From the NCBI GenBank assembly GCA_031261165.1, contig JAISJU010000177.1, positions 1-40,815 on the forward strand: 40,815 nucleotides of DNA. Reading direction: 5' to 3'. The notes under the pieces were generated by a model. That model had not been told where the DNA came from, did no database searches, and saw only the letters and a program-made list of their open reading frames with translations. Positions 2,727 to 40,747 of this stretch are shown here, one piece after another. The DNA comes from Prevotellaceae bacterium (GTDB taxonomy: Bacteria; Bacteroidota; Bacteroidia; Bacteroidales; Paludibacteraceae). The position numbers were made by a program, and so were the translations under genes. Numbering within the stretch: the stretch's first letter is position 1; each line of letters starts with the position of its first letter.

Positions 2727-3194
2727 ATGCAACCTTTAATGACCACCCAAAGAAATATCCAAACAGAAACAAAAGCTGAGTTTTCGCTTGGATACCTGTT
2801 GATGAAAAATGAGCAATACGTTGATGCCCTGTTCTTTTGGCTTTCGCAACAAGAGAAAGAAAATGCTGTCATTCAATACAATACGGCATTGTGTTATTTC
2901 TTTGCAAAAGATTTTTCGCAGGCAAAAGCAAATATCGAACTTTGCATCAGAAACATCAAAATTCAGTCTTACATTCAGCGAAATACAGCCATCAATCAGT
3001 TGCTTGAAACAGAGGCGCAATCGACGAATTACCTAAATCCGCTGTTGTCCGCAAGTCTGACGCTTTGCCCCGAACTCGTTTTGCTGCGTGCCAACCGCTT
3101 GCTGTATGATATTTGCGTGCAAATGGGCGATGTGCAGACCGCTCAACGCATTGCCGATACACTTGCGAATAAGCGTTTTTCAAACATAAATTGA
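2727..3194 (+). CDS. Small TPR-like protein
   Basis: The 155-residue product has no signal peptide and looks cytosolic and alpha-helical. Residues about 19-75 read as tetratricopeptide-like helices (AEFSLGYLLMKNEQYVDALFF, then IQYNTALCYFFAKDFSQAKA), and a helical C-terminal part (RANRLLYDICVQMGDVQTAQ) may hold one more. TPRs are protein-interaction scaffolds, so a specific role cannot be read. The start is either 2727 or Met5 at 2739. It has its own promoter (2706) and terminator (3217), so it is probably monocistronic. Confidence 0.75.
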   Translation: MQPLMTTQRNIQTETKAEFSLGYLLMKNEQYVDALFFWLSQQEKENAVIQYNTALCYFFAKDFSQAKANIELCIRNIKIQSYIQRNTAINQLLETEAQSTNYLNPLLSASLTLCPELVLLRANRLLYDICVQMGDVQTAQRIADTLANKRFSNIN

Positions 3195-3216
3195 GAAAGT
3201 TTAAAATACTGAAAAC

Positions 3217-3252
3217 AAAAAGATTGCCTATTTTCCGGACAATCTTTTTATT
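3217..3252 (+). terminator. Rho-independent terminator after the TPR-like gene
   Basis: AAAAAGATTG (3217-3226) pairs with CAATCTTTTT (3240-3249) and a T-rich tract follows. It lies inside the artefactual N-terminal extension that a TTG start at 3191 would give the next gene, which argues against that start. Confidence 0.7.
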
Positions 3253-3312
3253 TTTATGTTGTATAACATTTTATTTTTATGTTAAAAATGTTTCGGTTAT
3301 AAAAAAAAGGCA

Positions 3313-3320
3313 TATCTTTG
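3313..3320 (+). promoter_or_regulatory. Bacteroidetes -7 box (TATCTTTG)
   Basis: An exact match to TAnnTTTG, 45 bases before the ATG at 3365. It puts transcription start near 3327 and so decides the start codon of the ankyrin gene. Confidence 0.65.
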
Positions 3321-3364
3321 AAGTTTTAAATTTCAATAATATTAAACCAAAAAATAAATACTTT

Positions 3365-4345
3365 ATGGACTTGGATAATTTATTTCTAAATGCCTGTAAA
3401 AACGGGCAAAAAGGCGTGATTGAGGCGTTCTTGAAAAAAGGCGGCATCAATGTGAATAAACGCGATGCAATGGGCAATACGCCGCTGTTTTACGCCGCCG
3501 AAAAAGGCGCACGCGACATTGTCCTGATTTTGTTGAAACAAGATGCCGATGTTAATCAGGCGAACAACAACAGCCAAACGCCACTGCACAGCGTGTCGCG
3601 CTCGGGCAACAAAGAAATCATCAAACTGCTGGCAGACGGTGGCGCAGATGTGAATGCCACCGACAAAGAGGGCAAAACGCCGCTGATGTACACCCTCGCG
3701 GAAGGCAAAACCGAAGTTACCAAATTCCTGCTCTCGCTCGGCGCTGACAAGACCGTGAAGGACAACAACGGGCACACGGCTCTCGACTACGCCACTGCCA
3801 ACGGCTTGCGCGACACTATCGCCGTGCTGACCGAAGGCACGGAAAGCACAAAAGACAATTTCGGCAACACACCCATTCACCAAGCCGCCCACAACGGACA
3901 AACCGAAGTGCTGAACGTGCTTGTAAAACAGTCGATTGCCGACATTGACGCGCTGAACGCCAACGGCGAAACGGCACTCGTGATTGCCACCACAGGCAAC
4001 AATCTTGCCGTTGCGGAAATCCTGCTCGCGGCGGGCGCAAACGTCAATCTCAAACTGCTTAACGGCAACGCACCGCTGCATTTTGCGGCAATGTACGACA
4101 ATCGTTTCATTGCCAAAGCCCTGCTCGAAAAAGGCGCAGAGATAAACGCCAAAAACGAGTTGGGCGAAACCGCACTGATTCAGGCGGCACGCGGCGGACA
4201 CAACGATTTTACGGCTCTGCTTATCGAAAAATCCGCCGATGTGAATTGTGTGGATTTGCAACAAAAATCGGCTTTGGCGTATGCTTCGGAGGCGGGTTAT
4301 ACCGAAATTGTGGAACAGTTGATTATGGCGGGAGTGGAAAATTAA
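3365..4345 (+). CDS. Ankyrin-repeat protein (first of two)
   Basis: From the ATG at 3365 the product has 326 residues and consists almost entirely of about ten ankyrin repeats. The recurring pattern is G-x-TPL-xx-AAxxG followed by LL-xx-GAxxN (for example NTPLFYAAEKG, QTPLHSVSRSG, NTPIHQAAHNG, NAPLHFAAMYD, ETALIQAARGG). Ankyrin arrays bind partner proteins. No enzymatic domain or signal peptide is present, so it is probably cytosolic. A longer frame opens at a TTG at 3191, but that extension covers a terminator (3217-3252) and the promoter (3313), so its apparent hydrophobic N-terminus is not believed. It heads the LemA/DUF3137/DUF1266 block, with lemA starting 80 bases downstream. Confidence 0.85.
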   Translation: MDLDNLFLNACKNGQKGVIEAFLKKGGINVNKRDAMGNTPLFYAAEKGARDIVLILLKQDADVNQANNNSQTPLHSVSRSGNKEIIKLLADGGADVNATDKEGKTPLMYTLAEGKTEVTKFLLSLGADKTVKDNNGHTALDYATANGLRDTIAVLTEGTESTKDNFGNTPIHQAAHNGQTEVLNVLVKQSIADIDALNANGETALVIATTGNNLAVAEILLAAGANVNLKLLNGNAPLHFAAMYDNRFIAKALLEKGAEINAKNELGETALIQAARGGHNDFTALLIEKSADVNCVDLQQKSALAYASEAGYTEIVEQLIMAGVEN

Positions 4346-8703: not shown

Positions 8704-10293
8704 ATGCAAACCTACGAAATCAAAAGAATGTACGAACAAAATGACCCGAAAGAGGACATTTTGAACGCCTGCCAAACCGCCCTTGCCGAAAACGGCAACG
8801 ATTACGGCGTAGAACTGATTACGCTTGCGGCAAACTTTGCCGATGTCCGCGCCCTGCGCTTGCTTGTGGAGGCAGGCATTGACCCGCTACTACAAGACGA
8901 ATACAAACATACGCTCTTGCACATTGTGGCAAAGTTAGACGAGGCGCGGTATCACCTGCCGAGCGACGAAGACATAAAAGCAAGTGTAGCATTTTTGCTC
9001 GAACAGCGCGTCAGCGTGTTGCGCAAAGACGACAACCGCTATATGTGCTGTTATCACTACGCGGCAGAAACAGGCAATTATCCATTTATTGCTACGTTGG
9101 CAGAACACGGTGCCAAACTCACAATGACCGACCGCGATGGAAACACAGCCATTCACATTGCTGCTGATTATGTGAAGCATCCGATAAGCAGTCTTCAATA
9201 TACCGAAGACAGAGTTAGAAAAGCCGGTGAAGAGTTGGTAAAAGCGGCAAATTTGGGTGAGTCGTGGATAAAATCTGCCCAAAAAAGAGTGCAGGAATGC
9301 AATGAAGAATTGCAGGCAATTCACAAAAAAATAGAATATTATTTCCTGACAGTCAAAACATTGGTAGAAAGCGGCGTGGATAAAGACGAGAAAAACCAGT
9401 ACGGGCGCACGGCGTTGGAAAATGCCGTTGAGTCCGGTGCCAAGAAAATGGCTGCTTACCTCAATGGCGAAGACGTGGAAAGTGGCAACGCCGCAATCGG
9501 CGGTATGAACTTGCACCAAGCCGTTATCAAAGACGATTTGGAGGCAATCGCCGCCCTGCTGAAAAACGGTGCCGACCCCAACGCCCTGCTTGACGGCGAG
9601 CCGACTGACGACAGCCGCAATTACCTCGGCTGCACGCCGCTTGCAGTGGCTTGCGATTGTATCAGCGTGGAGGCGGTAAAACTGCTTTTGCAAAACGGCG
9701 CAACGCCCGGCTACAAAAACAGCGAAGGTAAAGCCCCCATCACGTGGCTGTTGAGTACGCGCGGGTGCAAGGTGTCAATGCAAACCGTACAAAAGGAAAA
9801 ACGTGTGGAACAAATCATCAAAGCCTTTATTGATGCGGGTTACAACATCAACGACACCGTCAATGACGATGCCGACACGCTCGTTATCTACGCGCTGAAA
9901 TATGCGGCAGAAACCCATTTGTATCACTTCGACCTCGAAGTAGTTGCCAATGAAGAAGCGATGTGCTACCGCGCCGATTTCAACCTGAGCAACCACGCGG
10001 GACAAACTCCGCTGATGCTCGCCTGCACGAAAGACCGGGAGGAAATAGAAAACACCCTGTTGAGTATCCTCGAAGCAGGCGTAGAAGTCAATGCCCGCGA
10101 CACGGAGGGCAACACGGCGTTGCATTATACTTTCAAAAACCGTTCAAAAAACACCACCAAAGCCTTTTGCGAATTGCTCTTGGATTTTGATGCCGATGCC
10201 GCCGTAGCCAACAACAAAGGCGAAACGGCTATGGATATGGCAGTGGCTACCGAAAATGAGCCGCTGGTGAAATTGTTGTTGAGCAAGATGTAG
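8704..10293 (+). CDS. Ankyrin-repeat protein (second of two)
   Basis: The 529-residue product is built of ankyrin repeats: residues about 50-170 (HTLLHIVAKLDEA, YMCCYHYAAETGNY, NTAIHIAADYV), a helical insert about 170-225, then further repeats (RTALENAVESGAK, MNLHQAVIKDDLE, CTPLAVACDCISV, QTPLMLACTKDRE, NTALHYTFKNRSK, ETAMDMAVATENE). There is no signal peptide, so it is probably cytosolic. It lies 10 bases behind the membrane-anchored DUF1266 gene and likely binds its cytoplasmic part or another product of the block. It ends in TAG, which shows that TAG is an ordinary stop codon in this genome. It closes the LemA-to-ankyrin block. Confidence 0.88.
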   Translation: MQTYEIKRMYEQNDPKEDILNACQTALAENGNDYGVELITLAANFADVRALRLLVEAGIDPLLQDEYKHTLLHIVAKLDEARYHLPSDEDIKASVAFLLEQRVSVLRKDDNRYMCCYHYAAETGNYPFIATLAEHGAKLTMTDRDGNTAIHIAADYVKHPISSLQYTEDRVRKAGEELVKAANLGESWIKSAQKRVQECNEELQAIHKKIEYYFLTVKTLVESGVDKDEKNQYGRTALENAVESGAKKMAAYLNGEDVESGNAAIGGMNLHQAVIKDDLEAIAALLKNGADPNALLDGEPTDDSRNYLGCTPLAVACDCISVEAVKLLLQNGATPGYKNSEGKAPITWLLSTRGCKVSMQTVQKEKRVEQIIKAFIDAGYNINDTVNDDADTLVIYALKYAAETHLYHFDLEVVANEEAMCYRADFNLSNHAGQTPLMLACTKDREEIENTLLSILEAGVEVNARDTEGNTALHYTFKNRSKNTTKAFCELLLDFDADAAVANNKGETAMDMAVATENEPLVKLLLSKM

Positions 10294-10465: not shown

Positions 10466-11482
10466 ATGAAAAAGTACAACTTTTTACCGGACAGCAACCG
10501 CGTTAAGCATAGTCCCGCCGCTGCAACGAACAACGTAGGGGTGCGCTTAATCGCGCCCCTGCTCGCCACCATTGCCTGCCTTCTGGCAATCGGAAACGCC
10601 AACGCCGCTGATTTGATTGCCATTCAGCACACATACTACACAGAGTACAATATGTCGATTCATTCCTTCTACGGCGACATTGCAGGGCAACCCACAGGGC
10701 AAACAGGCGAACAGAAATTCAGTTATTCCGTTAGGCGCGAAGAATACACCCCACCATTATATGGGGAAATTTTAAATACAAATAACTATGTGCCTAATAA
10801 TTCCGAAGGACAAATGCCGCAGGACTGGAACAATCCGGCGACACTTCAAAATGTGGGCTGGTATTACGGCGGCGCAGAAAATTTTGGGTTTCAAATGCCT
10901 GTTGACTGGACAAAGATTTTGGATATTGCCAACAACACGCAGATTTGCGCGGGCGGTACGCTGGCAATTACCGACAGCGTAACGGGAACTGTGCTTGCCA
11001 CCTACGCAGGCACTGACGCAAACGGACAAAGTATTTTGAATATTGACAGCGTAGCGTATTTGCAGTTTCTGGAAAACAGCAAAACCGTTACACATTCGGA
11101 AGAATACATTGGTATCAGGTACGAGTATCAATATATTGGCGGGAAATTGACAAGAATAGAGATTGAACAGTGGAGTATTACAGATTCTACGATTTATAAT
11201 TTGTCGGTAAATAAGTCGGTGGGAGTGGAAATACCTACGGGCATTGCAGCCGCCGCAAGCGGAAAATTGCAGATTTACATTTCGGGCGACGAGTTGCACG
11301 TAGAAATTCCATTTTTTGAAAAAATGGAATTTCTGAACGACTTGCGAATTTACGATATTGCAGGGCGTTCCGCAGGGGCGTATTGCATACGCCCGAATGA
11401 AACAATCAATGTTTCCAATTTGTCAAGCGGCGTTTACATTGTAAAAATTGGAAATAAATCAGCGAAATTTGCGAAGAAATAA
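10466..11482 (+). CDS. T9SS-secreted protein with type A sorting domain, carrying two in-frame palindromes
   Basis: The 338-residue product ends in a typical type A T9SS sorting domain (residues about 265-338: IYISGDELHVEI, LNDLRIYDIAGR, NVSNLSSGVYIVKIGNKSAKF), so it is probably exported across the outer membrane. The N-terminal export signal is unusually long: the hydrophobic stretch (LIAPLLATIACLLAIGNANA) only begins near residue 28, with cleavage probable around residue 47. Two GC-rich palindromes lie in frame in the gene: 10537-10560, just before the hydrophobic core, and 11376-11394, inside the sorting domain, where it encodes the odd insert SAGAYCIRPNE after IAGR. The mature region has no recognised domain. 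The gene is monocistronic. Confidence 0.85.
   Translation: MKKYNFLPDSNRVKHSPAAATNNVGVRLIAPLLATIACLLAIGNANAADLIAIQHTYYTEYNMSIHSFYGDIAGQPTGQTGEQKFSYSVRREEYTPPLYGEILNTNNYVPNNSEGQMPQDWNNPATLQNVGWYYGGAENFGFQMPVDWTKILDIANNTQICAGGTLAITDSVTGTVLATYAGTDANGQSILNIDSVAYLQFLENSKTVTHSEEYIGIRYEYQYIGGKLTRIEIEQWSITDSTIYNLSVNKSVGVEIPTGIAAAASGKLQIYISGDELHVEIPFFEKMEFLNDLRIYDIAGRSAGAYCIRPNETINVSNLSSGVYIVKIGNKSAKFAKK
10535..10562. repeat. GC-rich palindrome inside the T9SS cargo gene (copy a)
   Basis: AGGGGTGCG (10537-10545) pairs with CGCGCCCCT (10552-10560) around loop CTTAAT, with one G-T wobble. It lies within codons of the export-signal region without breaking the frame. Confidence 0.6.
11375..11395. repeat. 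GC-rich palindrome inside the T9SS cargo gene (copy b)
   Basis: GGGCGTAT (11376-11383) pairs perfectly with ATACGCCC (11387-11394) around TGC. It lies in frame in the sorting-domain coding region. Confidence 0.65.
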
Positions 11483-28440: not shown

Positions 28441-28564
28441 AGAAAACGTTTCTCAAAACAAACGTTTTTTTTGTGGAAAAGTTACTCCTAAGAGAAATAA
28501 TATAAGTTAAAGTCGAAAAGTTTTTGCAATATTTCTTGTATGTGCGGAAAAATTAGTACCTTTG
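28441..28564 (+). repeat. Terminator-promoter cassette, copy A
   Basis: A near-identical copy of 29441-29568: 67 bases (28493-28559) match perfectly, and the left part differs by three substitutions and a 4-base indel. It carries a hairpin (AAAACGTTT 28443-28451 with AAACGTTTT 28460-28468, T-run) at the left and a promoter at the right. Similarity stops right after the -7 box. Confidence 0.9.
28536..28564 (+). promoter_or_regulatory. Bacteroidetes promoter of the toxin-antitoxin operon (TTG, 18 bp, TACCTTTG)
   Basis: TTG at 28536-28538 and the -7 box at 28557-28564. It lies 27 bases before the ATG at 28592, which decides that start over a TTG at 28562. It forms the right end of cassette copy A. 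Confidence 0.7.
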
Positions 28565-28591
28565 AACTTTGAAAATTTAAAACAGAAAAAA

Positions 28592-29412: not shown

Positions 29413-29441
29413 AAACAAACACTCTAATAACCAAATTTACA

Positions 29442-29476
29442 GAAAACGTTTCTCAAAACAAACGTTTTCTTTTTTT
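29442..29476 (+). terminator. Rho-independent terminator of the toxin-antitoxin operon
   Basis: GAAAACGTTT (29442-29451) pairs perfectly with AAACGTTTTC (29460-29469) around an 8-base loop and is followed by T7 (29470-29476). It is part of cassette copy B. Confidence 0.8.
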
Positions 29477-29539
29477 GTGAAAAAGTTAGTCCTAAAAGAA
29501 ATAATATAAGTTAAAGTCGAAAAGTTTTTGCAATATTTC

Positions 29540-29568
29540 TTGTATGTGCGGAAAAATTAGTACATTTG
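29540..29568 (+). promoter_or_regulatory. Bacteroidetes promoter of the adhesin locus (TTG, 18 bp, TACATTTG)
   Basis: TTG at 29540-29542 and the -7 box at 29561-29568, in the same context as the toxin-antitoxin promoter but with one changed base in the box (A for C). The leader is about 50 bases. Confidence 0.7.
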
Positions 29569-29623
29569 GGGGTTGAAAACTACTCACGTTGAAACACCTG
29601 AAAACCCTTAAAATCTCAATACT

Positions 29624-32600
29624 ATGAAACACAAATTACTTTTTAATTGGTGTAGAATATTGTTATGTTCTGCACTGTTTTTAACTTTCTCTGTAAATGC
29701 CGCGACAGTAACCTCAACACAAAACGGCGATTGGAATACGCCGACAACTTGGGGAGGAACTGCTCCCGTTGCCGGAGATGATGTCGTAGTTGCAAACAAT
29801 GTTCGGGTAAATGCCGCTACTATTACTTGCGCCTCGCTTACTATTAATTCAGGTGCTACCCTTACTTTTGATGGTAATAATGCTGCCAATACACTTGTCG
29901 TCAATGGCAATTTAACTGTTAACGGCACGTTAAACCAAAACAACAACGCAGGTTTCCCTATCGAAATTCACGGTAATTTTACGGTAAACGGCACTTATCA
30001 AACCACCAATCAAAACAATGCCAATGTAAAAATAACGATGAAAGGCAACGGCGGTACTACTATCGGCGGTACTAATTTTGCCAACAATAACAACGAAAGA
30101 AGATTTTTAAATCTGACCATTGATTTGAATTCGTCGACTGCCGTTGTTACTTTGTTGAATGATATTTATTTTTCGGAAGGTAACGATAATAACAACTCCA
30201 AACGATTGACCATTAATCAGGGTATTCTTAATGCAACCGGCAGAACAATCAATTTTTATAAAACCGGTAAAATTATTACCACAGCCAATGGGCATATCGC
30301 TTGGAAAAATGATAATTGTGCCTACGATGCGCCCAATATCCATTGGATTAGTCCCGAATCAGGCTCAGATTTGACGGTTGAAGGCACTGCTCCGCTTTAT
30401 ATCAATAACTTTACATACGTTGCGGGTAAAGAAAATTTTAAATTTCCAAACAATTCAAGTGCCACCATCTGTATTCTGGGAAATATTAAATCAGATAAAA
30501 GCAACATTTATTATAATACCGGTACTTGGTATTGGGGACCCGATTCAAATTACGACCGCGGCGCAGTGGGCGGCGACCCGACACCTTCTTACACAGGTGC
30601 AAATGGTGCCGCAAACCTCAATAGCACTGCAAACGCAGCCTATCAAGCCCCTGCCATTATTCAAAATACTTTAGACTTTTGCGATTGCGAAGGTCTTACC
30701 AAGCCGAACAAGCCTGCACCTTCGTTAGAAAATATCTGCACCGGCGAAACATTAAGTGCATTGGAACCGGGTACTCACTCTTATACTTATCGTTGGCAAA
30801 CAGCGGCAACAGGCAAATTAACAACAGGCAATCCTACGACTGCCGCAGCAACAGGTACAAAATACTACTTGCGCGAACAGAACGGCACCTGTTGGAGCGT
30901 TGCATCAGAACCCGTTACGGTAATCGGCTCTGTGCCGGGCAATATCTCGCCGACATCAAGACAAATATTACCGGGTACTTCCACCAATATTACACTGACC
31001 GGCTATACCGGCACTATTCAATGGCAATCAAGTCCCAATGGAGTTGACACTTGGTCAAACATTGACGGCGAAACCTCTGCAACACTTTCTACCGGCAATC
31101 TTGCCTTAGGCGACTACTACTATCGCGCAGTAGTAACAAATGCTTCCTGCGCACCGGCATACTCTGCCGTAGCGACAATTTCGGCAAGTAATTGCAATGC
31201 CATTTCGGTACAGGATTATGATTTAAGCGGTTTTACATTTGTAGGCGGACCCTATTACATTAAAAATAATTACGCGGGTTTTACAAACCAGTATATTAAG
31301 GAAAATGAAAATAGATATATAGAAGCCAGCCGTGTATTTAATCCCTCTGAAAGCGACTTGGAAAATACCGACTATCTGTGGCTTGTGTATAGCCGTGTGG
31401 TTGGCGGAACAACCTATTATTTTATCCGCAACTATGCATCGGGTAAATTCTTTAACGCTAATTTTGATGCAGGCTACGACCACTATTATGACTGCGACAA
31501 CAGTAACAATGCTTTGCATCTTGAAACTTGGAACAGCGGCGGCGATGCGGCAACGGCGGCAAATGCCGACAATGATGCCAACAAAATAATGTCGACTTTC
31601 TGCTTTGAACTGGGTACCACACCTGTAAATGCAAATTTTACCACAACAATTATTGAAAAATTCTGGCATTATCCGAATCGTCCTTTGCACGGTCAATATA
31701 CCGATTGTCATATTAATGAAGATGCGAAAACGCCTTATGTTTTTTTTACAAGTAACAGTCACGCTTGGGGAACAAAAAGTTGGGATTTTATCAAATACAC
31801 TGAAAAAATTGTCAGCGAAGACGCTTTGCCAGACGGTAAATATTGCGAAGGTGCCAAAATTACTTTTATAGCACGAGGGCTTGGCGACAATGTGCAATGG
31901 TATGAAAATGCGGTATTCGGCACGCCTCTGGCTACCGGAAACACTTATATGACAAGTGCGCCCTTTGGTACTGATGTCAGCACAATCTGGTATGCTTACG
32001 ACCCCGATTGTAACATTACGCTCAATACAACAGTAACAACCAAATTCTGTTGCAGCAGTGTAGGTACTGCCTCTACCGTGTTTGAAGAACATTTTGATAT
32101 TACCAATGTAATAACAGACCAAAGCACCGATAAACGAAATGGTGTTATTATCCATCGTAATTATCAGGACTGTAATGGATATTGCGCACCCTTGCCGGCA
32201 GGAAAAGGTACTATTGGTACTCAGTATTCATATAATAATTCCGGAAGTGCCGATGGTTGCAATATGGGGGATAATGAGTATGCGATTGTAAAATCAAGTG
32301 GTAATTTCAGTTGGTGGAGCAGTAGGATACCCGTTAATGAACATACCGCCAACGGTGCAACAAACAGCGGCGCATTAATGGTTAATGCATCTTTTACTGC
32401 CGGATTGTTTTACACTTTAACGTTATCGGGCGTGTGTCCCAATACAAGTTATGACTTCTCAGCCTGGTATGCTTCGGTGGCTAATCCGAACCAATTACCA
32501 TCTGCTATTCTTTTTGAAGTGTATCAATCTCTCGGAGGTGTAGAAACATTGGTAGAAAGTAAAAATACAGGCGATTTTGGCGGTACTGCCGGCGGAAGTT

Positions 32601-34849
32601 TTCTGTGGCATCAGATGTCGCTTGAATTTACAACGCCTGCTGTTATAGCCGAAGGTGTTACCTACGTGCTGAAACTGAAAAACAACTATACCGGCGGCGA
32701 AGGTAATGACCTTCTTATTGACGATATTGTGGTTACCAAATGTTCGCCCACCGCTTTTGCATACGAGGCTGGTACAGCCAATCAGGAAATAGATGTTTGC
32801 AGCACAAAAGCAAAAAGCATAGAACTTCGCGCCGAAGTGTCGCAATGGGGCTTAATCTCGCCGGGCGGCGAACAGACTGTTTATTGCAGATGGATGTATA
32901 ATGATGTCAGTAAAGACTTGCCCGATGACCAATGGATACCGGTTGCAGATAAGGACGCAAGCACTTCAAAAGTATATACTTTCAATCCACAGGACGGTGT
33001 CGGTTCCACTCGCTATTTCCGTGCCAAACTTTCGGCAGACTCTACGAGAGCGGCAAACATTTCCTCGCTGTCAGCTCTTGGCGACTGTGCCGTAACCGAT
33101 ATTTATTCGGGCGTATTTACGGTCAATCAAACCGGCGATTTATCCCTTACGCCGACACAGGATACGATTGTCGTATGTAAAGGAACAGCGGTGAATTTAA
33201 AAGCAACCGTTACTACGCCGAGCGGCGATTATAGCAATGTTTACTGGTGTTGGAGCGCGTATGCCGATATTACAACCGTAATTCCGAGTTGGACACAGGG
33301 ACAAATAATCACGCAATATTCGCTGGGAACACCACAAAAAGACACAGTTTATTATATTCACGCCAAAAAAGCGGTTTGTTTGACTGATGCTAAAATTACG
33401 GTTAAGGTGAATGAGTCGCCGACCATCACTTTAACAAGCAGCAATAATACACAAAGCGTTTGTGAAAATGCAGCCCTTACGGCTATTACCTACACGCTTG
33501 GCGGCGGTGCCACAGGCGCGACTGTTACAGGCTTGCCCGCCGGCGTAACCGGCTCGTTGAGCGGTACAACATATACTATTTCCGGTACGCCGACAGTAAC
33601 AGGTACATTTAATTATACAGTAATGACCACCGGACAGGTAGCACCCTGTACTGCTGCGCAGGCTACCGGTACAATAACCGTTAATGCAAAACCGAATGTT
33701 AGTGTAAACAGCCCGACTATTTGTACAGGCGATAATGCAACACTTACAGCTTCCGGTACTGCAGACACTTATTCTTGGACACCGGGAACAAATTTAAGTG
33801 CCACAATCGGCGCAAGCGTAACCGCTACCGCCCCGACAAACGGCACACAATACACCGTAGAAGGTACGGCAACGGCAACCGGCTGTAAAAATACGGCAAC
33901 GGCTACAATAACCGTCAATGCGAAACCGAATGTTGCGGTAAACAGCCCCGAAATTTGTGCAGATGCTAATGCCACGCTCACGGCAAGCGGTGCAGATACT
34001 TATACTTGGACACCGACAAGCGGATTAAGTGCAACAATCGGTGCAAGTGTAACCGCTACTGCCCCGACAAACGGAAAACAATATACAGTTGAAGGTACGG
34101 TAACGGCAACCGGCTGTAAAAACACTGCCGTTGCAACAATAACCGTCAATCCGAAACCCACCGCAAATGCTGTTCCGACACAAATTCTTTGTGCCGCAGG
34201 ACAGGGAATAAACACAGGCTCCATAGATTTGACTGTAACAGGTGGTACTCCCGGTTATACATACGCTTGGAGCAACAGCGCGACAACCAAAGATTTGACA
34301 GGCTTGTCGGCAGGCAATTACAGCGTAACCGTAACCGACAGCAAAGGTTGTACGGCAACCGCAAGCGCAACCATCAATGCTGCGCCAACTGCTATTAGTG
34401 CTGCTTACGACCAAACGCCCGCTACTTGCGGAGCAAATAACGGTACGGTAACGGTTAAAAATGTAACAGGAGGTACAGGCGGTTACACCTATAATATAGG
34501 TGGTGGAGGTTTTGTTTCAGAAGCAAAATTTACAGGTTTGGCAGGTGGCGAACATACTGTAACGGTTAAAGATGCCAACGGCTGTGAATTTAATTTACCG
34601 GCTACTGTTGCGCAGTCCGGAACATTAAGCGGAAGCATTGCCGCCCAAACCAATGTAAGTTGCAATAGCGGCAGCAATGGCTCTGTAACAGTAGAGGGCA
34701 GTGGCGGCACACCCGACTATCAATATAAATTAGGTAGTGGCGTATATCAGGATAGCGGTACATTCAACGGATTGACAGCCGGTAATTATACCGTTACGGT
34801 AAAAGACGATGTTGATTGTACTTATGATGTAGCGGTAACGATTACGTAG
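29624..34849 (+). CDS. Giant SprB-like adhesin, N-terminal part, ended by in-frame TAG
   Basis: The 1741-residue product has a signal peptide (about residues 1-26, ending VNA). A G-x-W-x-x-x-x-T-W beta-domain follows at about 30-130, Ig-like segments at about 365-520, and a jelly-roll, carbohydrate-binding-like region at about 820-1040. PKD/Ig-like modules include three copies of a 77-78-residue repeat beginning NAKPNV or NPKPT (from 33683, 33917 and 34148). At the end lie three SprB-type repeats (GGTPGYTYAWSNSATT, LSAGNYSVTVTDSKGCTA). SprB-like proteins are surface adhesins exported by T9SS for gliding or attachment. The frame stops at TAG (34847-34849) in the middle of a repeat motif, TIT-stop-PDEL, where relatives have Gln. 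The same frame continues to the sorting domain, so this part lacks its T9SS signal. Confidence 0.9.
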   Translation: MKHKLLFNWCRILLCSALFLTFSVNAATVTSTQNGDWNTPTTWGGTAPVAGDDVVVANNVRVNAATITCASLTINSGATLTFDGNNAANTLVVNGNLTVNGTLNQNNNAGFPIEIHGNFTVNGTYQTTNQNNANVKITMKGNGGTTIGGTNFANNNNERRFLNLTIDLNSSTAVVTLLNDIYFSEGNDNNNSKRLTINQGILNATGRTINFYKTGKIITTANGHIAWKNDNCAYDAPNIHWISPESGSDLTVEGTAPLYINNFTYVAGKENFKFPNNSSATICILGNIKSDKSNIYYNTGTWYWGPDSNYDRGAVGGDPTPSYTGANGAANLNSTANAAYQAPAIIQNTLDFCDCEGLTKPNKPAPSLENICTGETLSALEPGTHSYTYRWQTAATGKLTTGNPTTAAATGTKYYLREQNGTCWSVASEPVTVIGSVPGNISPTSRQILPGTSTNITLTGYTGTIQWQSSPNGVDTWSNIDGETSATLSTGNLALGDYYYRAVVTNASCAPAYSAVATISASNCNAISVQDYDLSGFTFVGGPYYIKNNYAGFTNQYIKENENRYIEASRVFNPSESDLENTDYLWLVYSRVVGGTTYYFIRNYASGKFFNANFDAGYDHYYDCDNSNNALHLETWNSGGDAATAANADNDANKIMSTFCFELGTTPVNANFTTTIIEKFWHYPNRPLHGQYTDCHINEDAKTPYVFFTSNSHAWGTKSWDFIKYTEKIVSEDALPDGKYCEGAKITFIARGLGDNVQWYENAVFGTPLATGNTYMTSAPFGTDVSTIWYAYDPDCNITLNTTVTTKFCCSSVGTASTVFEEHFDITNVITDQSTDKRNGVIIHRNYQDCNGYCAPLPAGKGTIGTQYSYNNSGSADGCNMGDNEYAIVKSSGNFSWWSSRIPVNEHTANGATNSGALMVNASFTAGLFYTLTLSGVCPNTSYDFSAWYASVANPNQLPSAILFEVYQSLGGVETLVESKNTGDFGGTAGGSFLWHQMSLEFTTPAVIAEGVTYVLKLKNNYTGGEGNDLLIDDIVVTKCSPTAFAYEAGTANQEIDVCSTKAKSIELRAEVSQWGLISPGGEQTVYCRWMYNDVSKDLPDDQWIPVADKDASTSKVYTFNPQDGVGSTRYFRAKLSADSTRAANISSLSALGDCAVTDIYSGVFTVNQTGDLSLTPTQDTIVVCKGTAVNLKATVTTPSGDYSNVYWCWSAYADITTVIPSWTQGQIITQYSLGTPQKDTVYYIHAKKAVCLTDAKITVKVNESPTITLTSSNNTQSVCENAALTAITYTLGGGATGATVTGLPAGVTGSLSGTTYTISGTPTVTGTFNYTVMTTGQVAPCTAAQATGTITVNAKPNVSVNSPTICTGDNATLTASGTADTYSWTPGTNLSATIGASVTATAPTNGTQYTVEGTATATGCKNTATATITVNAKPNVAVNSPEICADANATLTASGADTYTWTPTSGLSATIGASVTATAPTNGKQYTVEGTVTATGCKNTAVATITVNPKPTANAVPTQILCAAGQGINTGSIDLTVTGGTPGYTYAWSNSATTKDLTGLSAGNYSVTVTDSKGCTATASATINAAPTAISAAYDQTPATCGANNGTVTVKNVTGGTGGYTYNIGGGGFVSEAKFTGLAGGEHTVTVKDANGCEFNLPATVAQSGTLSGSIAAQTNVSCNSGSNGSVTVEGSGGTPDYQYKLGSGVYQDSGTFNGLTAGNYTVTVKDDVDCTYDVAVTIT
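33683..34147 (+). repeat. Tandem 77-78-codon repeats in the adhesin
   Basis: The unit starts (N)AKPNVSVNSP and ends CKNTATATITV, and occurs at 33683-33916 and 33917-34147. A degenerate start follows at 34148. The shared core SATIGASVTATAPTNG is identical in protein and nearly so in DNA. Confidence 0.85.
34847..34849 (+). other. In-frame amber codon splitting the adhesin
   Basis: The codon order is ATT ACG TAG CCT GAT GAA TTA, in the same frame as the ORFs on both sides. A single C-to-T change from CAG would restore the expected ITQPDEL repeat junction. TAG is a normal stop elsewhere in the window (10293, 39599, 40619). Confidence 0.9.
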
Positions 34850-34870
34850 CCTGATGAATTAACCGTAACT

Positions 34871-37075
34871 TTGACAGGCGTGCCAACTACCGTATGTCCG
34901 AGTGCCAATGCCGTATCTGTAACGGCAAATGTAATCGGCGGTACAGCATCTTATACTTACGCTTGGACAGGTGCAACAGGCTCAACAGCCAATGTGTCTG
35001 TAACCATTCCGGCTACTTGCGGCAATGTGAATGTAAAAATAGACATCACAGATGCCAAAGGCTGTACGGCTACAAATGATGCAGATATTACGGTGGCAGA
35101 TAATGTTGCCCCGACCGGTACTGCTCCTGCCGGCACAAACAATATCAATGCTTGTTTTGTAAATGCTACGACAATGCCTGTGGGTGTTCCCGCCTTTAAT
35201 CCGACAGCAGCGGCAGCGGGCTATACGGATAATTGCGCTGGCACCGTAACCGCAACTTTGACCGGTACGAGTGTAACAGGCAATAATTGTTCTTGGACAG
35301 GTACTTACACCTTTAAGGTATCCGATGCTTGCGGCAATGAATTGACAAATCAGACAATTGTTTATACCGGCGGCGATAAAACCGCTCCGACCGGCACTGC
35401 TCCGAGTGGCACAACAAACATTAACGCTTGCTTTGTAGATGCAAGTACGATGCCTTTGGGTGTTCCTGCTTTTGCAACTTTAAATGCGGCAACTGGTTAT
35501 ACCGACAATTGTGGCGGCACAGTAACCGCAACATTGACCGGAACAACAGTAACAGGAACAAATTGTTCTTGGACAGGTACTTATACCTTTAAGGTATCAG
35601 ATGCTTGTAATAATGAATTGACAAATCAGACAATTGTTTATACCGGTGGCGACAAATCTGCTCCTACATTTGGTTTAAGCGGAACAACGGCTAATCCGGA
35701 TGAGGCAGGAAATTGTGTTTTTGAAGTTCCCGATTTGGAAAGTTTAGTAATAAGCAAAGCCGATAACTGCACGGCAGCGGGAAGTCTTATTTATACGCAA
35801 ACACCTCCGGCAGGTACGGTAATAACCGCCGACCAAGTAGTTTCGATAACCTTAACGGACGCTTGCGGAAATGTAAGTGCGGCGCAAACAGTTACGGTAC
35901 AATATGGCAACCCGAATCCAACGGCAAACATCACAAACATTACCGGCACCACTATATTGACTTGCGCAACCACAAGCATAAGCGTAACGGCAACCGGCGG
36001 CGGTACTTACGCTTGGGATAATGGTTTAGGTAGTGCTGCTGCTGCAACAATAACAAATACAGGCACTTACACAGTAACCGTAACCGCCGCAAACGGTTGT
36101 ACGGATACAGAAAGCATAACCATAACGGACGACAAAACCAAACCGACCGCAGGCATTACGCCGAGCGGAACAGAATTGTCTTGTTCGGTACCGAGCATTA
36201 CGCTGACACCAAACGGCGTTGGCAGTTATGTATGGCTTGACGGAACGGCAACCATAACCGAGCCGGGCGATTATCGTTTGGAAGTAACTGCCGCCAATGG
36301 CTGTAAAGATACGGCAACAGTAACTATTACCAAAGATAATACCCCCAATACTAAACTTCCTTTGAACAAACCGGCATCTGTATGTGAAAATGCAGCATTT
36401 GAATTGCCGGCATTGACAGATGCGGATACTTATTATGAGTATTCTATTAATGGTATTGACTGGCTAAGGCTGAACGACAGAATGCGTAGTGCAGCAGATA
36501 ATCATTGGTATCGCGTTAATTCAAGCCTTCCGTGCGTGCATTATTCGGACTCGGTAAAACCGGACATCGTTCCGCCGATAACCGGTTTGATACTGGAGTA
36601 CGAAAACATCAGCGCACAATCCCATCAGGACAAAGAAATGGTAACGCCGGGTCAAACGGTGCAAGTGAAGTTGAATATGGATAATCTCGGAAATTATCAA
36701 TGGAACGATGGCAAAAAAGACACGACAACCGTAGATAATACGCTGACAATCCGCCTCTACAAAGACCGTAAAATAACGGTAGTAGCCGACAACAACGGCT
36801 GTCCGTCAGAGCCTGCGGAAATAGATATTCCGGTTATCTGGCCTACCGCCATTACGCCCTACACCAAAGACGGCTACAATGATGACTTTATACCCGAAAT
36901 CAATTGCCATATAATAATCTTCAACCGCTACGGACAAAAAGTGAGCGAAGGCAACAACGGTTGGGACGGTACATATCGCGGCGCACTTGCAGACCCGGGA
37001 ACTTATATGTATGTGGTGAATTTGCCTGACGGCGAAGTGAAAAAAGGAACGATTGAAGTAGTGAAAATAAAATAA
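34871..37075 (+). CDS. Adhesin C-terminal part with type B T9SS sorting domain
   Basis: This open frame (734 residues from a TTG at 34871) is in the same phase as the preceding adhesin ORF and has no promoter, RBS or signal peptide of its own, so it is the tail of one 2483-codon gene. It holds the rest of a SprB repeat, two near-identical 92-residue HYR-like units (residues about 80-171 and 172-263, each with GYTDNC and SWTGTYTFKVSDAC), and Ig-like modules (TCATTSISVTATGGGTYAWD and SCSVPSITLTPNGVGSYVWL). It ends with a CHU_C/type B gliding-motility sorting domain (about 655-734: ITPYTKDGYNDDF, IIIFNRYGQKVSEG, NGWDGTYRG, DPGTYMYVVNL). Without readthrough or reversion it would not be made. Confidence 0.85.
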   Translation: MTGVPTTVCPSANAVSVTANVIGGTASYTYAWTGATGSTANVSVTIPATCGNVNVKIDITDAKGCTATNDADITVADNVAPTGTAPAGTNNINACFVNATTMPVGVPAFNPTAAAAGYTDNCAGTVTATLTGTSVTGNNCSWTGTYTFKVSDACGNELTNQTIVYTGGDKTAPTGTAPSGTTNINACFVDASTMPLGVPAFATLNAATGYTDNCGGTVTATLTGTTVTGTNCSWTGTYTFKVSDACNNELTNQTIVYTGGDKSAPTFGLSGTTANPDEAGNCVFEVPDLESLVISKADNCTAAGSLIYTQTPPAGTVITADQVVSITLTDACGNVSAAQTVTVQYGNPNPTANITNITGTTILTCATTSISVTATGGGTYAWDNGLGSAAAATITNTGTYTVTVTAANGCTDTESITITDDKTKPTAGITPSGTELSCSVPSITLTPNGVGSYVWLDGTATITEPGDYRLEVTAANGCKDTATVTITKDNTPNTKLPLNKPASVCENAAFELPALTDADTYYEYSINGIDWLRLNDRMRSAADNHWYRVNSSLPCVHYSDSVKPDIVPPITGLILEYENISAQSHQDKEMVTPGQTVQVKLNMDNLGNYQWNDGKKDTTTVDNTLTIRLYKDRKITVVADNNGCPSEPAEIDIPVIWPTAITPYTKDGYNDDFIPEINCHIIIFNRYGQKVSEGNNGWDGTYRGALADPGTYMYVVNLPDGEVKKGTIEVVKIK
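35108..35659 (+). repeat. Two tandem 276-bp units in the adhesin tail
   Basis: Units 35108-35383 and 35384-35659 encode 92 residues each beginning APTGTAP and ending IVYTGGDK. Long stretches are identical in DNA (for example AATTGTTCTTGGACAGGTAC), so the array could expand or contract by recombination. Confidence 0.85.
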
Positions 37076-37080
37076 AAAAC

Positions 37081-37194
37081 ATCTGAATCAGGATTTGCAG
37101 GATTAAAGGATTAACAGGATAAAACCTGAAATCCTGCAAATCATAAAATCCTGCGGTTATTGAGCGTAGCCGAAATGCAAATCCTGATTCAGAC
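37081..37194. repeat. CTGAATCAGGATT hairpin element, copy 1 (with insertion)
   Basis: The ends ATCTGAATCAGGATTTGCAG and AAATCCTGATTCAGA are inverted, with internal AGGATT/AATCCT repeats. It is nearly identical to 38538-38627 except for about 24 extra bases (about 37154-37178) containing TGAGCGTAGCCGAA. It lies between the adhesin and ompA-like genes. Confidence 0.8.
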
Positions 37195-37214: not shown

Positions 37215-38531
37215 ATGAAAAAGATAATCACAATAGTATTAGCAATCGGTTTGGCAACAAGTGCTTTTGCCATACACGAGAAATATGTGCAGGGCTATGA
37301 ATTTAAGCCCTCGAAAGTCAATACGGAAAGTAATGACCGGGCAATGTCGTTCCTGAAAAACAAAGTGGTCTATTCCGTGCAGGACACCGCTGCGGGCAGT
37401 GCCATCAAACTCTATGTAGCCGATGTTATTGAGCAGGATATTGAACTCGACAACGCCGAGTTTTCGCAAGAACTGACCGATTTAGGCATTTTCGGCACAT
37501 TTGCTTATGACGAAAGTTTGAATAAAATCTACTTTTCGCATTACGACAAAGCGACCAAAAATTATATGCTCTACGAAAGCACACAGACCGAAGAAAAAAC
37601 GTGGACATCGCCCAAACGCTTGAAAATAGCGGGTTTGCAGGGTTACCGCAAAGACGGCTCGCCGCTGGTGAATGCCGGCTGGCTTTATCGTGCGCCGGGT
37701 TTATCGGGCTTTTTCAATCCCACGCTGGCAGACGGCGGCAAACGCATCTATTTCTCTGCCGATTTCCCCATTGGAAATGGCGAACGCGATATTTGGTATG
37801 TTGAAAAAGAAGACGATACGCATTGGTCAATGCCCCAAAATCCGGGTACAAACGTCAATACCAAAGGCAAAGAGGACTATCCTTTTGTGATTGGCGATAA
37901 ACTCTATTTTTCGTCTGACACGGAAACAAACGGCGGCACAGACCTCTTTGTTTCCGAAAAAGAAGGCAATGCGTGGGGCGTTGCCAAGCCTTTGGACAGC
38001 GTTTATAACTCTTCGGCTGACGACTACAACCTGATTGGTACGGAAAACACCATCTTCTTTGTGTCCGGCAGGCACGAGGGCTATGCAGACGATATTTACC
38101 GCCCTGCACGCCTCTTGCTTGAGCCTTGCCCCACATTGGCAGAATCCACGCCCGAATCCGAGCCGATTATCCAAATGAAGACCTTCCCCTGGAAACTCTT
38201 CTATTTTGATTTCGACAAAGATATATTGAACGAGGAATTTCTTATCGAACTTGACCAACTTTACAATACGATGATTGACTTTATGCAGGATAACGACTTT
38301 GTCATTCGCGGACACACCGACTCGCGCGGCACCGATGAATACAATATGCGCCTATCCAAACGCCGTGCGCAACGTATTCAGAAACTGCTCGCCGAAAAAG
38401 GCATACCAGCAAAGATTATGCACATAGAGCCTTACGGTGAAAGTCAGCCGGTTATTCCCGATGCGCAAACGGAAGAAGAACACGCACAAAACCGCCGCGT
38501 AGAAGTGGATATTGTGAGAAAAAACAATTAA
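37215..38531 (+). CDS. OmpA-family protein with PD40/WD40-like repeats (T9SS-associated)
   Basis: The 438-residue product has a signal peptide (about residues 1-19, ending AFA). A beta-propeller-like region of PD40 repeats lies at about 90-300 (LSGFFNPTLADGGKRIYFSA, EDYPFVIGDKLYFSSDTETN, DDYNLIGTENTIFFVSGRHE). A C-terminal OmpA peptidoglycan-binding domain lies at about 325-437 (FYFDFDKDILNEE, IRGHTDSRGTDEYNMRLSKR, RRVEVDIVRKN). The domain order PD40-OmpA resembles PorE-type T9SS proteins without the TPR part. It probably sits in the periplasm, tethering outer-membrane machinery to peptidoglycan. It lies between the adhesin and the PorP/SprF gene, so it likely helps export or anchor the adhesin. 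Confidence 0.9.
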   Translation: MKKIITIVLAIGLATSAFAIHEKYVQGYEFKPSKVNTESNDRAMSFLKNKVVYSVQDTAAGSAIKLYVADVIEQDIELDNAEFSQELTDLGIFGTFAYDESLNKIYFSHYDKATKNYMLYESTQTEEKTWTSPKRLKIAGLQGYRKDGSPLVNAGWLYRAPGLSGFFNPTLADGGKRIYFSADFPIGNGERDIWYVEKEDDTHWSMPQNPGTNVNTKGKEDYPFVIGDKLYFSSDTETNGGTDLFVSEKEGNAWGVAKPLDSVYNSSADDYNLIGTENTIFFVSGRHEGYADDIYRPARLLLEPCPTLAESTPESEPIIQMKTFPWKLFYFDFDKDILNEEFLIELDQLYNTMIDFMQDNDFVIRGHTDSRGTDEYNMRLSKRRAQRIQKLLAEKGIPAKIMHIEPYGESQPVIPDAQTEEEHAQNRRVEVDIVRKNN

Positions 38532-38537
38532 AATAAC

Positions 38538-38627
38538 ATCTGAATCAGGATTTGCAGGATTTTAGGATTAACAGGATAAAACCTGAAATCCTGCAAATCA
38601 TAAAATCCTGAAAATCCTGATTCAGAC
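38538..38627. repeat. CTGAATCAGGATT hairpin element, copy 2
   Basis: This is the 90-bp version of the element at 37081-37194, again directly behind a gene of the adhesin locus. Its ends can pair (CTGAATCAGGATTT with AAATCCTGATTCAG). It could terminate transcription or stabilise mRNA ends. Confidence 0.8.
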
Positions 38628-38654: not shown

Positions 38655-39599
38655 ATGAAAAGAATAATAATAATTCCCCTGTTTTTGATAATGTCGCTCG
38701 GTGCGTTTGCGCAGCACGATATTTTGCTGACGCAACAATGGTTTTCGCGCATCAACCGAAACCCTGCCTCCACAGGCAACAGCGACTATTACGACTTGTT
38801 TCTTCTCACGCGCCGCCAATGGACAGGCGTGGATAATATGCCGCAGAGCAATCTGTTGAATGTGCATAGTTATTTCGATAATATCCGTTCGGGCGTAGGC
38901 TTGTCGCTCGCTTACGAAAATCCGGGCGGTATTGCCAACTCGGTGCTAAATGCCAAAATACCTTATGCTTATCACCTGAATTTGAAGGAAGACCTTTTGC
39001 TTTCTCTGGGTGTGAGCGCGGGTATTCTCTACAAGTCCTTTGACCCGACCAAGCACATTTTGCGTGATGGAAAGGTAGATGATATAGATTTTCCGCAAGA
39101 AAAAGAGGGAAAAGTGAATCCCGATTTTGACTTCGGGGTGGAACTTTCAATGCCTAAATTGTTGGTAGGCGCGTCTGTAACGCATCTCGGTATGCTGCAC
39201 AGTAAAGTAACCACTTACAGTTCGGCAATGAATTTTTACGGTTATGCGCGTGGCAATTTTGTGTTGAACGAAAACTTCGACATTGCGCCCTCAGTGGTTT
39301 ATTTGAACTACGGAAAGGTGAATTTGATAACCATTGGTGCCAACGTTTTCTACAAAAAAATGATTTGGGCAGGCATAGATTACCGTCCGCCCTCGCCGCG
39401 CAAAGCCGACTTGCAAAAGTGGGATTACTCAATGCTCACGGCAATGCTCGGTATTGAGTGGAACTTCTTCCGTATCGGCTACGCCTACGATTTGAGTTTG
39501 TCGAAACTGAACGATTTGTCGTACAGCACGCACGAATTGATGCTTTCGTTCCGCATACCGAATAAGGCTAATAAATATGGCGTGCGGTTTATGCAATAG
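38655..39599 (+). CDS. PorP/SprF family type IX secretion membrane protein
   Basis: The 314-residue product has a signal peptide (about residues 1-19, ending AFA before QHD). The PorP/SprF start pattern follows (LLTQQWFSRINRNPASTGNS), then LLTRRQWTGVDNMPQ, VGLSLAYENPGG, and barrel-like strands to the C-terminus (ELMLSFRIPNK). Members are outer-membrane beta-barrels. PorP is required for the T9SS itself, and SprF-type paralogs are needed to secrete or hold one type B sorting-domain adhesin. As it follows an SprB-like adhesin, the SprF role is favoured. It ends in TAG just before a foldback element. Confidence 0.94.
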   Translation: MKRIIIIPLFLIMSLGAFAQHDILLTQQWFSRINRNPASTGNSDYYDLFLLTRRQWTGVDNMPQSNLLNVHSYFDNIRSGVGLSLAYENPGGIANSVLNAKIPYAYHLNLKEDLLLSLGVSAGILYKSFDPTKHILRDGKVDDIDFPQEKEGKVNPDFDFGVELSMPKLLVGASVTHLGMLHSKVTTYSSAMNFYGYARGNFVLNENFDIAPSVVYLNYGKVNLITIGANVFYKKMIWAGIDYRPPSPRKADLQKWDYSMLTAMLGIEWNFFRIGYAYDLSLSKLNDLSYSTHELMLSFRIPNKANKYGVRFMQ

Positions 39600-39605
39600 A
39601 TGACT

Positions 39606-39698
39606 TTGAACGCAAATGACGCAAATTACACAAATTTCCGCAAATGATGCGAATAAATATTTGCGAAAAATTGTGTAATTTGCGTCATTTGCGTTCAA
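39606..39698. repeat. Foldback element, 'CGCAAAT' family (copy 3)
   Basis: Arms of 40 bases (39606-39645 and 39659-39698) match at 38 of 40 positions around a 13-base loop. The arms start TTGAACGCAAATGACGCAAA. It separates porP/sprF from the next promoter and shares its arm start with 14703. Confidence 0.8.
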
Positions 39699-39706
39699 AA
39701 AAGTAT

Positions 39707-40256: not shown

Positions 40257-40619
40257 ATGATTAGAACTTTTCAAAAAATACTTTATTTGTTTGTTGCATT
40301 GGTATTTAGCACTGCAACCTCTTTCTCGTGGGCAGCGGCTTTTCACGCCGAAGAAGTCAGTATTTCCTGCAAAAAAGCAGGTTTCTACGAACTGCAACAA
40401 ATCGGCGTTGCAAATATTGCCGTGCAACAAAAACAAGTCAATTCTTCCAATCACGGCAACGCGGGTGCTAAAATATTCAATAGAAACACGGTTTTCGGTA
40501 CCTTTGCTACACAACTTTTTTATAGAAATATTGAAATTCAATATGTTGCATTGGCAAAAACAATGAAAATCGGTTTGCCTGTGCAGAAAATTATCTTCCC
40601 ATCGCATTTTTTCTTTTAG
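40257..40619 (+). CDS. Small secreted orphan protein
   Basis: The 120-residue product has a signal-peptide-like N-terminus (about residues 1-26, YLFVALVFSTATSFSWAAA). The short polar and basic mature part shows no recognised domain. The ATG at 40257 lies 9 bases after the DUF2442 stop, so it may share that transcript. The stop codon (TAG, 40617-40619) falls inside the left arm of a foldback element, so the present C-terminus may have been shaped by that element. A 142-codon frame on the other strand overlaps it completely and looks like a shadow. Whether this gene is translated is uncertain. Confidence 0.5.
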   Translation: MIRTFQKILYLFVALVFSTATSFSWAAAFHAEEVSISCKKAGFYELQQIGVANIAVQQKQVNSSNHGNAGAKIFNRNTVFGTFATQLFYRNIEIQYVALAKTMKIGLPVQKIIFPSHFFF

Positions 40620-40713
40620 CACGCAGATAACGCAGATTTATAGGATTCTCGCAGATTTTTTATTACAGAAATCTGCGGAAATCCTATAAATCTGCGTCAT
40701 CTGCGTGCTAAAA
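40614..40713. repeat. Foldback element, 'CTGCG' family
   Basis: Arms of 45 bases (40614-40658 and 40669-40713) match at 42 of 45 positions around a 10-base loop. The left arm starts TTTTAGCACGCAGATAACGC. It is followed by an A/T tract and includes the stop codon of the small secreted gene. Confidence 0.8.
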
Positions 40714-40747
40714 AAAAAATAATAATCAAATAAAACAAAAGAAAAAA

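Follow-up and report, generated by a model that had tools for sequence, protein, structure and literature searches.

A single in-frame TAG separates an adhesin gene from its type B T9SS sorting domain in a Prevotellaceae bacterium

The gene for a type B T9SS adhesin is interrupted in this genome by a single in-frame TAG at positions 34847-34849 of the forward strand, read directly in the sequence, and the two frames that flank it are one former gene. We think it reasonably probable that the interruption is a real mutation, a recent single-base nonsense lesion in one of the roughly 18 genes for type B T9SS proteins that the genome contains, and neither recoding nor a dedicated switch is indicated at the TAG. 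The 5' open reading frame (29624..34849, +) runs for 1741 codons ahead of the stop and is followed, in the same phase, by 741 open codons (34850..37075, +) up to a TAA at 37073-37075, which makes 2483 codons with the TAG included. Between 34850 and 37075 the coding frame contains no stop, against 11 to 67 in the remaining five frames. Codon frequencies, computed over the window (the whole 40,815-nt stretch of DNA that we analysed) and the fetched loci, correlate at 0.90 between the 5' and 3' parts in frame and at about 0 when shifted, and GC content by codon position is similar in both. Together, stop counts, codon frequencies and GC by position identify the two sides of the TAG as one coding frame, confirming what a sequence-only reading of this DNA had claimed from the common phase of the two frames and their total length.

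The 5' part opens with a predicted Sec signal peptide (MKHKLLFNWCRILLCSALFLTFSVNA, 29624..29701, +), judged by eye, and contains by Pfam an Ig_7 match and, shortly before the TAG, three SprB repeats over the PF13573 cut-off (34172-34285, 34406-34510 and 34640-34738, +). Past the TAG, Pfam recovers HYR_4C and CHU_C: two HYR-like repeats (35210-35391 and 35486-35667, +), 85% identical to each other, and the C-terminal CHU_C sorting domain that a type B substrate requires (36842..37054, +; PF13585 at 32.8 bits for a cut-off of 27, and 38.5 bits in the genome search). The TIGR04131 match to the same C-terminus, at 32.7 bits, is slightly below its cut-off of 35. The predicted signal peptide is thus kept on one side and the sorting domain on the other, as had been proposed; the 'lectin-like' regions of the same proposal find no support, since neither Pfam nor searches of the tested pieces at E values up to 2 detected any lectin or carbohydrate-binding family in the 5' part. 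Neither a signal peptide nor an obvious separate start is seen in the 3' part, where the first ATG comes no earlier than codon 108. Upstream of the whole gene, a candidate -7 promoter (TACATTTG, 29561..29568, +) is proposed from a match to the Bacteroidota -7 motif TAnnTTTG.

The residue that the TAG replaced can be approached through repeat arrays, aligned at the junction, from 19 relatives' loci (same order or family) and from two paralogous loci within this genome. The alignment offers 125 equivalent repeat boundaries, which are distant homologs and not orthologs and, coming as repeats from a small set of proteins, are not independent of one another; there, the residue opposite the TAG was Gln in 48 cases, Glu in 31 and a stop in none, usually with Pro next. 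This bears out the TIT-stop-PDEL junction, and the Q-P described as usual there. Where the adhesin has TIT-stop-PDELTVT, its paralog on contig C45 has IVTQPEKLTVT, and the one on contig C56 (open frame of 2259 aa) aligns without any stop over the junction and into the HYR region, showing that the parts on either side of the TAG belong together. Judging from these sequences, the likeliest ancestor is a Gln codon (CAG, through a C-to-T change), and the next a Glu codon (GAG, through G-to-T), which is the weaker alternative. The single C-to-T change suggested previously therefore holds in that one base change suffices and Gln comes first, but G-to-T from Glu is an alternative to it. No ortholog was found in 300 genomes of the family, in 60 relatives by DNA comparison or in two further contig scans, and an exact-pattern scan of viral contigs found nothing.

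If the lesion is real, one base change would have turned a repeat-boundary codon, for Gln or with lower likelihood Glu, into TAG; ribosomes would stop there, and the truncated product, retaining its predicted signal peptide, would reach the periplasm. Because the motifs of the type B C-terminal domain (CTD) are each necessary for secretion (PMC12618676), a product devoid of this domain would presumably stay in the periplasm and not be displayed on the surface. The state of the 3' part bears on the age of such an event. Over 60 codons, the two HYR-like repeats have accumulated about 20 synonymous against 8 non-synonymous differences (dS 0.62, dN 0.06), and this mainly synonymous divergence indicates that the 3' part was once translated, with the reservation that their dN/dS of about 0.10 reflects the time since the repeat arose and is silent on the period after the TAG appeared. 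No nonsense codon is found in the 3' part beyond the TAG. Nonsense changes would make up about 2.3 to 3.2% of substitutions there, so that a neutral history exceeding about 0.04-0.06 substitutions per site should, at the 95% level, have left another one. Against a real lesion it counts that the 3' part lacks the decay expected of an old pseudogene. Hence the lesion arose recently, the frame remains in use, or the cells do not have the stop.

The last of these options, a consensus or strain-mixture error in which a sense codon of the cells came out as TAG when a repetitive adhesin gene was assembled, is the main competitor of the lesion, and we hold it to be a distinct but lesser possibility; of the explanations offered by the sequence-only reading, recent inactivation and this one both remain. 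The assembly consists of 225 contigs with 3.65% contamination, some tRNAs that usually lie in rRNA operons are missing from it, as fits a metagenome bin, and an undecayed 3' part is what such an error would leave. However, a lone substitution would be required, where long reads typically give indels; the assembly holds no second allele, the nearest copy being 69% identical, and the junction lies outside any long near-identical repeat. The remaining explanations accept the stop and have it decoded or reversed. TAG serves as a stop in this genome: RF1 is present with full score, the 24 genes of the window whose stops were counted end in TAA (16), TGA (5) or TAG (3, PorP/SprF among them), and TAG also terminates two other CHU_C genes of the genome. 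We accordingly rejected the idea that this organism reads TAG as an amino acid, which only the open frame favors, because RF1 is present, several intact genes end in TAG and no tRNA with a CTA anticodon was found; barring some system that escaped notice, its probability is close to nil.

Leaky readthrough, in which Gln would be inserted at the TAG at low frequency, so that a little full-length adhesin reaches the surface and selection maintains the arrangement, would also explain the intact frame past the stop. Gln tRNAs are able to misread UAG in E. coli (PMC5289835), and a tRNA-Gln with anticodon CTG is present here. Nevertheless we find it unlikely, in view of RF1, of the absence of a suppressor tRNA and of ordinary folding after the stop, where the energy is no better than that of shuffled sequences (z -0.58). 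No anticodon reading a stop was found among the 36 tRNAs of the genome, all of which were typed, so that the search for suppressors recommended earlier came back empty. This absence is not proof, since the genome is 96.5% complete and several standard tRNAs (Ile-GAT and Ala-TGC among them) were not found, and an undetected suppressor tRNA would in turn weigh against the nonsense lesion that we favor. A stop conserved in relatives, as readthrough would lead one to expect, is seen at none of the 125 distant-homolog sites, which argues against a conserved recoding element. Phase variation, with TAG as the off state, has the class of gene in its favor, as surface adhesins are a frequent target of such switching, but slippage cannot reverse a substitution, and the site has no slippable or simple repeat, invertible arms, donor cassette or second allele. 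The nearest DNA copy in the genome, 69% identical, does not span the stop. We regard this explanation as very improbable, and neither switchable expression nor amber readthrough, both put forward earlier, gained any positive evidence.

How frequent such interruptions are can be judged from the 18 CHU_C sites of the genome: 11 belong to frames that have a start of their own, five reach a contig edge, one is the TAG-split gene described here and one is on contig C196. In the latter (locus L138, 1-275) an in-frame TAA directly precedes CHU_C, with VY-stop-PNAI where paralogs have LPNAI, a case made doubtful by its position about 38 bases from the low end of the contig. A more speculative view would make the TAG a selected low-leak valve, in which misreading by tRNA-Gln sets a small and fixed exported fraction and the TAA of C196 is a second example; we give it little credence.

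Returning to the nonsense lesion as the preferred explanation, the genes downstream indicate which kind of adhesin would have been affected. A PD40 and OmpA protein, intact and PorE-like (37215..38531, +), reaches only 109 bits with NF052230 PorE, for which the cut-off is 600, and is followed by an intact PorP/SprF shuttle-type outer membrane protein with a TAG stop of its own (38655..39599, +; PF11751, E 9.5e-48). The genome has six PorP/SprF genes and SprA, so that both a linked PorP/SprF gene and a T9SS translocon, as expected for a type B substrate, are at hand. In Flavobacterium johnsoniae, SprB and the other mobile type B substrates are encoded without a PorE-like gene, and those encoded with one appear static (PMC12618676), a picture similar to that in PMC9143113. 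Given its PorE-like and PorP/SprF neighbors, the intact form would by analogy be a wall-anchored static adhesin, and not a gliding SprB. The earlier label 'SprB-like' is hence justified by the three SprB repeats only, whereas the neighborhood resembles the static, wall-anchored kind (PMC12618676, PMC9143113).

The closest known arrangements, such as Fjoh_3952/3951/3950 and the PG1035-PorP-PorE complex, share with this locus a type B domain, an OmpA/PD40 PorE-like protein and a PorP/SprF protein, consecutive on one strand; here, in contrast, the substrate gene is interrupted by TAG and the order is adhesin, PorE-like, PorP. SprB of F. johnsoniae has SprB repeats, a type B CTD and a PorP/SprF neighbor in common with our adhesin, which is far shorter (2483 codons versus 669 kDa; PMC9143113), has only three confident repeats and lies with a PorE-like gene that is absent from sprB. 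As for the mutation itself, gldB of the natural isolate F. psychrophilum FPS-S11B carries a point mutation that creates a premature stop (PMC8400371), also in a motility- or T9SS-linked gene of Bacteroidota, so that this kind of event is already known. It differs from the present case in the gene concerned and in the phenotype and strain comparison that accompany it. Our literature search found no description of a type B adhesin split by a nonsense codon, nor any of readthrough in such a protein. If the stop is present in the cells, the strain has very recently lost one surface adhesin, with its dedicated shuttle and anchor genes intact, which would illustrate adhesin turnover in nature on a small scale; a consensus error would instead call for caution before biological meaning is read into a lone stop of an assembled genome. 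Knowledge of the T9SS is left unchanged by either outcome.

Some further features of the window and the genome deserve mention. Two long SprA-type proteins (L113 on C61 and L114 on C214) are 48% identical over the available stretches and represent either two translocons or the sign of a mixed bin. A 338-aa protein at 10466-11482 carries the T9SS type A domain Por_Secre_tail, and the window therefore has both CTD types. Ankyrin-repeat proteins are encoded at 3191-4345 (384 aa) and 8704-10293 (529 aa). Around the PorE-like and PorP genes lie palindromic intergenic repeats of the AATCAGGATTTGCAGGATT type and others (37064-37154, 38521-38610, 39605-39699 and 40608-40719), possibly terminators or dispersed repeats. 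Finally, a direct repeat of about 138 nt (28441-28579 and 29441-29579; 32 nt at 97% and 110 nt at 93%), whose copies are 1000-1004 nt apart and which has no other full-length copy in the genome, brackets a small-protein and DUF3368 (PIN-like) pair resembling a toxin-antitoxin module. Each copy contains a TAnnTTTG-like motif, so duplicated promoters may serve both this pair and the adhesin, and recombination between the copies would delete the putative module.
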